This document shows, one piece after another, positions 42,185 to 53,723 of a stretch of DNA of 64,000 nt. Position 1 is the first letter of the stretch; each line of letters begins with the position of its first letter. Made by a program: the position numbers and the translations under genes. The stretch is from Methanolobus psychrophilus R15 (GTDB taxonomy: Archaea > Halobacteriota > Methanosarcinia > Methanosarcinales > Methanosarcinaceae): positions 1,550,001 through 1,614,000 of the forward strand of contig CP003083.1 in the NCBI GenBank assembly GCA_000306725.1, written 5' to 3'. The notes beneath the pieces were generated by a model, which had not been told where the DNA came from, did no database searches, and worked only from the letters and a program-made list of their open reading frames with translations.

Positions 42185-42289
42185 GGTACCTATTTATCCT
42201 TTGTTTGCATTCTATTTAGCAGTTAATGTTTTCTTCTGGGAATTATTTTAATATAACTAACATCCTTTATATGAAAAGGAGGTATTCAT

Positions 42290-43759
42290 ATTAACGCCGT
42301 TGCTAAGGAGAACACTGCAAGCGACAGGATCAGGATAAAGCCCACTTACCTAATACTTGGAAGCGGGAGTTTTGGCTTTGCATTGGCCAAAGAGCTCAGG
42401 GAGCTTGACAAAGACCTGATAATCGTGGATAAGGATGCGCAAAAAGTCGAAACCCTGCGCGATGAAGCCTATGAAGCCATTGTCGGCGACGTCGGCGACC
42501 CCGGCCTCCTTGACCGGATCAATACAAAGAACCTTTCAGGCATACTAATTCTCAGTTCCGATACCTTGGCAAATAAAGCTGCTCTTGACAATGTCAGGAA
42601 GAAGGTATCAAGGGACGTATATTGTGTAGCAAGGGCCACTGATGTTATCAATATGCAGGAGATGGAAACAATGGGTGCTGACCTTGTCATCATGCCTCCG
42701 AGAATGGTCGCCAAATCCCTTTCAAGGTCTCTGGAGCGTGCCGAAGGGCTGCGACGTGGCAATAAGATGGCGCAGTGGTTTGAAAATATCCGGGGCAAAA
42801 AGATGGCTATCATGGTGCATAATAACCCGGATCCGGATGCCATTGCAAGTGCGCTTGGACTAAAGACCATTGCAAATTCCCATGATATAAGATCGGACAT
42901 TGTGTATCATGGAGAGATAGGACATCAGGAGAACAAGGCTTTTGTGAACCTTCTGGGAATCGATCTTTACAGGTATGAGGACATTGAAATGGCAGCCTAT
43001 GACAAGATTGCCATGGTGGACTGTTCCGGACCGGGGGCCAACAATCCCCTTCCTACGAACACACATATCGGGATCATAATCGATCATCACCCCATAACGG
43101 ATTCCGACATAGATGCCGAATTCATCGACATACGCCCCAACGTGGGTGCTTCCTCCACCATTGTGACAAAGTACCTGCAGGAACTCAATATCGATATTGA
43201 CGGCAAGCTTGCAACAGCTCTTCTGTACGGGATCAGGACCGATACCCTGGACTTTAAGAGGAACACAGACTCAGCCGACCTTTCAGCCGCTTCATACCTC
43301 TATCCCCTGTCGGACCATGATATCCTGGATCAGCTGGAACGTCCTTCCATGTCCATCGAGACGCTGGACGTATTGGGCGAGGCTATCAACAATCGCCAGG
43401 TCATAGGAAGTTATCTTCTTTCAAATGTAGGAAGCATCCGCGACAGGGATACGCTCCCTCAGGCTGCGGACTACCTGCTCAATCTGGAAGGCATCTCGAC
43501 TACCATTGTCTTTGGTGTGAGCGAGGACAAGATATTCATTTCCGGCAGAAGCAATGACATCCGTGTTAATCTGGGAGATGTCATGAAACGCGCCTTTGGC
43601 GAGGAGTCTGGCGGAGGACATGCCAACGCTGCAGCCGCAACTATAGAACTCGGCGTTTTCAGCGCAGCAAAGGACAGGCAGACCCTTTTGAGACTTGTTA
43701 ATGAAGCAGTGGTCAAGCGCTTCCTTACAGCCGTCGGTGTGGAAGAAGACGACATATAA
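42290..43759 (+). CDS. TrkA-N and DHH-family phosphoesterase fusion protein, ATT start
   Basis: About 489 residues. An N-terminal Rossmann domain (YLILGSGSFGFALAKEL and LIIVDKDAQKVE) binds NAD or a nucleotide. The DHH domain has MVHNNPDPDAIASALGL and IIIDHHPITDSD, and the DHHA1 part ends ESGGGHANAAAAT. Such fusions act on c-di-AMP or nanoRNA in relatives. No ATG, GTG or TTG occurs in frame before 42383, which lies inside the Rossmann motif. The best start is ATT at 42290, six bases after AAAGGAGGT; TGA is in frame upstream at 42272. Confidence 0.85.
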   Translation: MNAVAKENTASDRIRIKPTYLILGSGSFGFALAKELRELDKDLIIVDKDAQKVETLRDEAYEAIVGDVGDPGLLDRINTKNLSGILILSSDTLANKAALDNVRKKVSRDVYCVARATDVINMQEMETMGADLVIMPPRMVAKSLSRSLERAEGLRRGNKMAQWFENIRGKKMAIMVHNNPDPDAIASALGLKTIANSHDIRSDIVYHGEIGHQENKAFVNLLGIDLYRYEDIEMAAYDKIAMVDCSGPGANNPLPTNTHIGIIIDHHPITDSDIDAEFIDIRPNVGASSTIVTKYLQELNIDIDGKLATALLYGIRTDTLDFKRNTDSADLSAASYLYPLSDHDILDQLERPSMSIETLDVLGEAINNRQVIGSYLLSNVGSIRDRDTLPQAADYLLNLEGISTTIVFGVSEDKIFISGRSNDIRVNLGDVMKRAFGEESGGGHANAAAATIELGVFSAAKDRQTLLRLVNEAVVKRFLTAVGVEEDDI

Positions 43760-52638: not shown

Positions 52639-53637
52639 TTACTTTAGTCTCGCCATTGAAGAATTAATAGCAATTTCCGCCACATTTGCACCGTAGTCAG
52701 CAGTCCTGTCAATACTGTCAACCACTATACCCAGGGCAACTATGGTTTCATGGGATTCAAGTTTAAGGCTTGCCTCATTGAGCCGGGTCAGCAGTGGTGC
52801 CATTTTTGCAACCCTTTCAATTACCTGGTTGGCAAGATCGACATCGAAACCATATAATGAATCGATAGCATCCTCCACAATCTTTCTTGAGAGGTCGCTT
52901 GTCTTTTCGATCATATCCATTATATCATCGGGTATAGGATGCTTTAAAGAGAATGTTACCCTGGCAATCTTGCGCGCATGGTCAGCGATGCGCTCTATCG
53001 GACCTGCCGCCATCCTTAGGTCGTGGTACTCATCAATCGACGCTTCCGAAACATCAGGGAGCTTGGCACCCCTTAGCACTGCACGGTATTGTTTTGCAGT
53101 CAAAAGGAACAGCCGGTCTACATCATCATCCCTGTGGTCAACGTCTAGTGCCAGGTCAGTATCGAGGGTCTTGATAGCCCTTATAGCATCCATGTGCATG
53201 GAATTCGAGATGAGGAACATCCTCCGCACACTTTTCTTGATGGATATCTCATCGGGATTGAGCAGATCCTGAATAACTACTTTCTTTGCCGTTTCCTCGA
53301 TGATCTCCGGACCGATAAGCTTGTAGCACATCTCCCGAATGATGCTCTTCTGATCCGAAAGGATGCGGTCAGCTTTGATCTCGATGATATCAGAGCCTAC
53401 AAGATAGGCGGCTATGATGTCCCGCTTAAGGATATCACCCATTCTTCCGGTTACATCTATCTGGCATTTTTTTACAGGAGGGGCATCATGGACCGGGTCG
53501 ATCACTAGTTTCCCATCGGGTTGCGGATACAGACTAACCCGGCTGCCTGTTTTGATTCCCACTTTATCTGCCCATGGCTTTGGAAGGGAAATAATATATG
53601 TGGAACCACCCGTTTGCTGAACTTTTCTCGTCTCTAT
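52639..53637 (-). CDS. phoU: PhoU-type phosphate regulator with AbrB domain, ATA start
   Basis: About 332 residues. An N-terminal SpoVT/AbrB-like domain (ETRKVQQTGGSTYIISLPKPWADKVGIKTG) is followed by two PhoU helical bundles (DLALDVDHRDDDVDRLFLL and GPIERIADHARKIARV). The first standard start (GTG at 53562) cuts off half the AbrB domain. No ATG, GTG or TTG exists between it and an in-frame TGA at 53649. The ATA at 53637, six bases after GAGGG, matches the Met position of relatives and is chosen. Likely a regulator of phosphate uptake. Confidence 0.85.
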   Translation of the reverse strand: METRKVQQTGGSTYIISLPKPWADKVGIKTGSRVSLYPQPDGKLVIDPVHDAPPVKKCQIDVTGRMGDILKRDIIAAYLVGSDIIEIKADRILSDQKSIIREMCYKLIGPEIIEETAKKVVIQDLLNPDEISIKKSVRRMFLISNSMHMDAIRAIKTLDTDLALDVDHRDDDVDRLFLLTAKQYRAVLRGAKLPDVSEASIDEYHDLRMAAGPIERIADHARKIARVTFSLKHPIPDDIMDMIEKTSDLSRKIVEDAIDSLYGFDVDLANQVIERVAKMAPLLTRLNEASLKLESHETIVALGIVVDSIDRTADYGANVAEIAINSSMARLK

Positions 53638-53723
53638 TATAATCCCTCATAATAACCTTGATTTTGACGAATATATAGAATATCTTGTAGTATATATAGG
53701 TGCCCTTTTGATGGCGAGAACAA

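Follow-up and report, generated by a model that had tools for sequence, protein, structure and literature searches.

The infC gene of E. coli has a conserved AUU start codon and is autoregulated by IF3. TTG and GTG starts are used by normal archaeal genes and accepted by ordinary gene finders, unlike AUA, AUU and AUC (here AUH). Autoregulation of infC is also mentioned in a study of S. aureus, in which an extended Shine-Dalgarno sequence precedes the AUA starts of infC and ccpN and the AUU start of cvfC1; those of ccpN and cvfC1 are conserved (PMC13009471). In poor medium, reporters with the S. aureus starts of ccpN, cvfC1 and citZ (AUA) were expressed at about 10% of the AUG level; in rich medium the ccpN reporter reached up to 30% (PMC13009471). 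The ccpN gene encodes a transcriptional repressor, and S. aureus and B. subtilis share its odd start (PMC13009471). For archaea, the start-codon shares of M. mazei, in the sections of PMC11456600 available to us, mention ATG, GTG, TTG and CTG only; aIF1 disfavours non-AUG starts in other archaea (PMC6237735, PMC8211752), and in the open-licence literature we found no earlier report of conserved AUA, AUU or AUC starts in archaea.

The window analysed here, a stretch of 64,000 nucleotides from Methanolobus psychrophilus R15 (genome of one contig, 3,072,769 bases), holds a PhoU-AbrB family gene that we read as starting at ATA, and a second gene that appears to start at ATT. The features concerned, in window positions, are:

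52639-53637, minus strand: PhoU-AbrB family gene, 332 aa from ATA 53637 (open frame; Pfam PhoU and MazE/AbrB; 84 family orthologues aligned from residue 1)
53635-53637, minus strand: ATA start codon (ATA 62, ATC 14, ATG 8 of 84 family orthologues; 4 tree changes against 17-20 at internal Ile columns)
53647-53649, minus strand: in-frame TGA, four codons 5' of the ATA (sequence)
53560-53562, minus strand: GTG, first canonical in-frame start, codon 26, rejected as the start (sequence; domain match)
53644-53648, minus strand: Shine-Dalgarno-like GAGGG (GAGG or GGGG in most non-ATG orthologues)
53672-53677, minus strand: TATATA, putative TATA box (sequence)
42290-43759, plus strand: gene for a TrkA_N-DHH-DHHA1 protein (TrkA-DHH), ATT start (sequence; domain matches; 46 orthologues)
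42277-42283, plus strand: Shine-Dalgarno sequence AGGAGGT of the ATT gene (sequence; GGAGG-type at the same place in the orthologues displayed)

On the minus strand the PhoU-AbrB frame reads TGA (53649-53647), GGG, ATT, ATA, ATA (53637-53635), GAG, ACG, AGA and onwards to GTG (53562-53560), and it is open from ATA 53637 to the stop at 52639 with no internal stop. Direct reading bore out an earlier note on this DNA, which held that ATG, GTG and TTG are absent from the upstream TGA to the GTG at codon 26; between that TGA and the conserved codon 2 the only start candidates are GGG, ATT, ATA and ATA. Six bases (ATTATA) separate GAGGG (53648-53644) from ATA 53637, which is, as the note had remarked, the spacing seen at ATT 42290, where ATTCAT follows AGGAGGT (42277-42283). 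Pfam matches placed MazE_antitoxin at residues 7-51 and PhoU in two stretches, both models above cut-off; the NCBIfam AbrB domain model scored just below its own (25.9 versus 28.3 bits), and the score against classical PhoU (TIGR02135) was 68.6 bits versus an equivalog cut-off of 130.25. The protein has the make-up of an archaeal PhoU-like regulator, an AbrB/MazE-type N-terminal domain plus PhoU domains, and its nearest named records are from Methanolobus, then from other Methanosarcinaceae.

GTG 53562, as the first canonical in-frame start, invites the reading that a shortened protein is made. That we consider very improbable, because no Shine-Dalgarno match of at least four bases stands at a usable distance from the GTG, orthologues differ in where their first downstream canonical codon falls, and residues 1-25 would be lost, and with them 7-25 of the DNA-binding domain match (7-51). 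The earlier note had objected that this start would delete a conserved region, and residues 2-25 are indeed conserved as protein. Between the window and the other Methanolobus sequences compared, differences in codons 2-26 were almost all synonymous (15 synonymous and 0 amino-acid differences in L074), so these codons are translated. Further upstream, if the TATATA is a TATA box, the PhoU-AbrB transcript would have a leader of about 13 nt, and a second copy of TATATATA lies at 53698-53691 on the minus strand. As a separate observation made by eye, TTCTATATA/TATATAGAA repeats surround the putative TATA box (window 53671-53698, minus strand; also L110 and L098-L105); the palindrome that they form is complete in L110 and nearly so in genera g8 and g3. 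They are a possible operator for the AbrB-type domain of the protein itself; a palindrome search within the window found nothing.

We compared the start region in 111 PhoU-AbrB orthologues: 84 belong to the same family, 5 to family f2, 6 to f3 and 16 to f5. PhoU paralogues (identity about 30-41%) and a fragment of 159 residues (G041) were left out; the six f3 sequences could not be aligned at the start and stand outside the 84, 5 and 16. The aligned codon was ATA in 62 of the 84, ATC in 14 and ATG in 8, and never ATT, GTG or TTG. All 24 Methanolobus orthologues had ATA; the family members with ATG belonged to genera g3 (2/9), g10 (4/4) and g9 (2/2), and ATG was also found in 5/5 f2 and 16/16 f5 sequences. 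The proposal of the earlier note that ATA is the start is thus strongly supported, with ATA or ATC in 76 of 84 family orthologues. Its further statement that relatives carry Met at this position held for outgroup families f2 and f5 and for 8/84 of the family, but not for close relatives, which carry ATA or ATC. A sequencing error for ATG, or a degraded start in one strain that would make the gene a pseudogene, has nothing in its favour except the oddity of ATA itself; the same codon in 24 separate Methanolobus genomes and in most other genera compared, together with the lack of an internal stop in the window's gene, leaves this explanation with almost no probability.

An upstream in-frame ATG, GTG or TTG was absent between the upstream stop and the aligned codon in 54 of the 76 non-ATG orthologues. 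The other 22 failed this strict test, 21 through such a codon and one because its contig ended before a stop. In 6 of 8 g8 members (L098, L100-L103, L105) an ATG lies two codons upstream, directly behind GAGGG, and likewise in 4 others; this earlier ATG could serve in these orthologues though hard against GAGGG, and in g8 the start may have moved to it. The same position is ATT in 24/24 Methanolobus (53643 in the window) and often ATT, ATC or ATA elsewhere. Initiation at the ATT, with the ATA as an ordinary Ile codon, would agree with this constancy and with the g8 ATG; yet only one base separates ATT 53643 from GAGG, the codon between ATT and ATA is otherwise unconserved among the non-ATG orthologues, and the outgroups have their ATG at the ATA position. 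One Methanolobus sequence, L083, has TAA directly 5' of the ATA, between it and the upstream ATT, so no earlier start is possible there. Outside L083 the choice of ATA rests on spacing and conservation, because the upstream codon is itself so often ATT, ATC or ATA. Bases -11 to -8 of the 76 non-ATG orthologues were GAGG in 50, GGGG in 18, AGGT in 4, GAGA in 3 and GGGA in 1, so that a GAGG or GGGG Shine-Dalgarno-like sequence begins at -11 in 68/76, including 24/24 Methanolobus.

The constancy of the codon was gauged on a quick gene tree built from the 97 codons after the start in the 84 family and 5 f2 sequences, using for comparison the three internal columns among the first 60 codons in which Ile makes up at least 90%, gaps left out. 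Among the 76 non-ATG sequences the start codon required 4 changes, whereas the three Ile columns required 17, 18 and 20. Were the ATA an ordinary Ile codon, it should be as variable as the internal ones, and we regard initiation at the upstream ATT as improbable. Exchange between ATG and non-ATG needed just two changes on the tree, though ATA to ATG is a single transition, and ATT, common at the internal columns, was never found at the start. Judged by these alignments, such strict retention favours selection on the codon.

As with infC and ccpN, no canonical start is possible at PhoU-AbrB in the window, a Shine-Dalgarno sequence stands at working distance, and the non-canonical codon is kept across species. 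We put at about 0.85 the probability of the whole explanation, namely that ATA 53637 is an authentic start, placed by the Shine-Dalgarno sequence, read by initiator tRNA-Met and kept by selection for low synthesis. The Shine-Dalgarno sequence would position initiation at the ATA, which would most probably be decoded by the ordinary initiator tRNA-Met (anticodon CAU) with a third-position mismatch, placing Met at the N-terminus; the peptide expected for the M. mazei orthologue from its ATA/ATC start is M-ETRKVQQTGGSTYIISLPK. Scanning with one initiator-type anticodon-arm pattern gave three places, a tRNA-Met (CAT), a tRNA-Arg (TCT) and one non-tRNA; no initiator tRNA with another anticodon was seen. 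With a single tRNA-Met(CAT) bearing the initiator-type arm, AUA would be paired with a third-position mismatch and give Met. Since AUA and AUU starts express weakly in S. aureus, low expression of PhoU-AbrB is expected by analogy; the AUA, with a presumably low initiation rate, is likely a translational throttle that keeps the protein scarce, and selection would have kept the weak start most likely because it holds synthesis of a DNA-binding regulator low.

This locus resembles S. aureus infC, ccpN and cvfC1 in having an AUH start behind a Shine-Dalgarno sequence, and ccpN, too, encodes a regulator. The S. aureus cases, however, are bacterial and known from ribosome profiling, with reporter tests for ccpN and cvfC1, whereas PhoU-AbrB is archaeal and read from sequence, in a setting where aIF1 is credited with discrimination against non-AUG starts (PMC6237735). 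E. coli infC shares the conserved AUH start, and its AUU sets the level of a regulatory protein; the infC product, however, itself senses start-codon stringency, and PhoU-AbrB is not an initiation factor. TTG and GTG starts of archaeal genes are like AUH starts in being weaker starts in normal genes. The aIF1 gene of this genome (G000:C1:1952939-1953154) itself has ATG at the conserved N-terminus. Compared without genera g9 and g10, whose PhoU-AbrB start is ATG, 15 family aIF1 proteins have Val and Ala where 29 others have Ile and Pro; these two conservative, family-specific changes have no known effect and offer no evident cause of the odd starts.

Alternatively, the protein might arise by frameshifting from an out-of-frame ATG that overlaps the Shine-Dalgarno sequence (ATGAGGG, 13 bases upstream of the ATA). 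This ATG occurs in 16 of 24 Methanolobus, and the same genomes do contain a 2-isopropylmalate synthase gene that looks frameshifted; but its absence from the other 8 Methanolobus, and from 52 of the 76 non-ATG orthologues overall, makes a frameshift here a very slim prospect.

That 2-isopropylmalate synthase-type gene (L365:1476-3014, minus strand; G000:C1:1776476-1778014) is an observation in its own right. Its main frame has no canonical start before codon 100, and in 29 of 30 family orthologues (L375-L404; exception L392) a short ATG-led frame runs through AGG GAT CGN TTT TTA, and the enzyme is encoded in the +1 frame. Only the third base of CGN varies (CGC 14, CGA 8, CGT 7), which is silent in the upstream frame, and GAGGG lies just upstream of the UUU-UUA site. 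This pattern points to a likely conserved programmed +1 frameshift at UUU-UUA behind an internal GAGGG, an arrangement that recalls the +1 frameshift of prfB. UUA encodes leucine and the gene serves leucine synthesis, so feedback suggests itself, and the frameshift is possibly leucine-responsive. We found no literature on a frameshift in this gene. For a second gene of this type (L359:12305-13783, plus strand, with orthologues L405-L434), 27 of 30 orthologues lack a clear canonical start when inspected by eye; three g14 members have TTG, and most orthologues have TTA 7 bases after GAGG.

Further AUH starts were sought in 864 kb, comprising the window and 40 stretches (800 kb more) with 393 + 308 = 701 coding-like ORFs, by scanning for coding sequence that extends upstream of the first canonical start and then checking relatives. 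At least five AUH starts were supported, those of PhoU-AbrB, TrkA-DHH and three more genes, LarA-like, CysK and AIM24. At its coding-score threshold of 3 the scan missed PhoU-AbrB (score 1.9), so its sensitivity is low and 5/701 is a lower bound; of its 44 rows, 14 had by eye no convincing AUH start. Two of the five lie in the window, which is thereby richer in such starts than the other stretches sampled. The TrkA-DHH start was ATT in 17 of 46 orthologues, ATA in 11, ATG in 7, TTG in 10 and unclear in one (L057: GTG, ATT or ACG), and 22 of the 28 with ATT or ATA had no upstream in-frame canonical start; L051 and L150 have GTG two codons before the start, within the Shine-Dalgarno region. LarA-like has ATC in 7/7 Methanolobus, and its 20 orthologues divide into 7 ATC, 6 ATT and 7 ATG once ten paralogues near 30% identity (L206-L215) are set aside. 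CysK, counted without one paralogue (L277) and one truncated CysK (L268), has ATC in 6/6 Methanolobus, all of them lacking a canonical start upstream, whereas 9/9 others have ATG. AIM24, with a weak Shine-Dalgarno match, has ATA in 5 and ATG in 2 of 7 Methanolobus, and outside the genus 7 of 8 orthologues apparently have ATG and one (L259) possibly ATA.

Two side observations concern single genes. A HAD-type hydrolase (L361:5725-6399, plus strand), viewed in this genome only, seems to start at an ATA behind GGAGG because its first ATG falls inside the FDMDNT motif, which we take to have a role in this enzyme. The gene for KEOPS subunit Pcc1 (L183:15474-15719, plus strand) has no ATG, GTG or TTG before codon 57 and likely starts at CTG; the aligned codon is TTG, GTG or ATG in 28 of 29 relatives and ATC in one, so the CTG stands alone.

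When this genome was scanned by itself for codons of any kind that follow a Shine-Dalgarno match and precede the first canonical start, AUH codons showed no excess (at five or more matched bases, ATA, ATT and ATC once each, other codons once or twice), and the case for AUH starts rests on comparison between species. The earlier note had read its two genes as a sign of relaxed start selection in this organism, a view that the absence of such genes elsewhere in the genome would have overturned; the three more in the extra 800 kb agree with it that further cases exist. However, these starts are shared by descent within a genus or throughout most of a family, amount to five in 701 ORFs, and at PhoU-AbrB are strictly retained. 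As compared across relatives, AUA, AUU and AUC starts are real but rare, gene-specific and inherited, and not a general sloppiness of one organism. As a better description than relaxed selection, this points to particular genes having retained weak starts in a lineage with accepting ribosomes. Because the other four genes behave more loosely, the idea of relaxed selection stays partly open.

The same genes bear on whether AUH starts are near-neutral, drifting in a lineage of loose stringency with no regulatory role. AIM24 and LarA-like switch to ATG between relatives, TrkA-DHH switches to ATG or TTG between genera, and the two aIF1 sites (Ile to Val, Pro to Ala) set the family apart; against this, the PhoU-AbrB start is conserved far beyond the expectation of drift, and by a crude count 353 of 393 sampled ORFs have a canonical codon with a Shine-Dalgarno match of at least four bases. 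Near-neutrality is a possibility to be taken seriously, if one we doubt, and it has room in the four genes whose starts behave more loosely.

PhoU-AbrB would belong to a limited group of genes with AUA, AUU or AUC starts that this methanogen family has retained. A wider reading is that Methanosarcinaceae carry some tens of inherited AUH-start genes as a start-stringency regulon, whose output would co-vary with initiation fidelity as this shifts through aIF1 or through the level or modification of initiator tRNA. We think this unlikely; if true, archaea would have their own version of the infC logic of bacteria, applied to regulators and metabolic enzymes. For annotation, gene finders confined to ATG, GTG and TTG misplace the PhoU-AbrB start in the 54 of 84 family orthologues that have no upstream canonical codon, in the window by 25 residues and into the DNA-binding domain. 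For the biology of the family, archaea would gain a conserved non-AUG start comparable to those of bacterial infC and ccpN, and methanogens amenable to growth and genetic modification would offer natural targets on which the start-codon fidelity of aIF1 could be probed.
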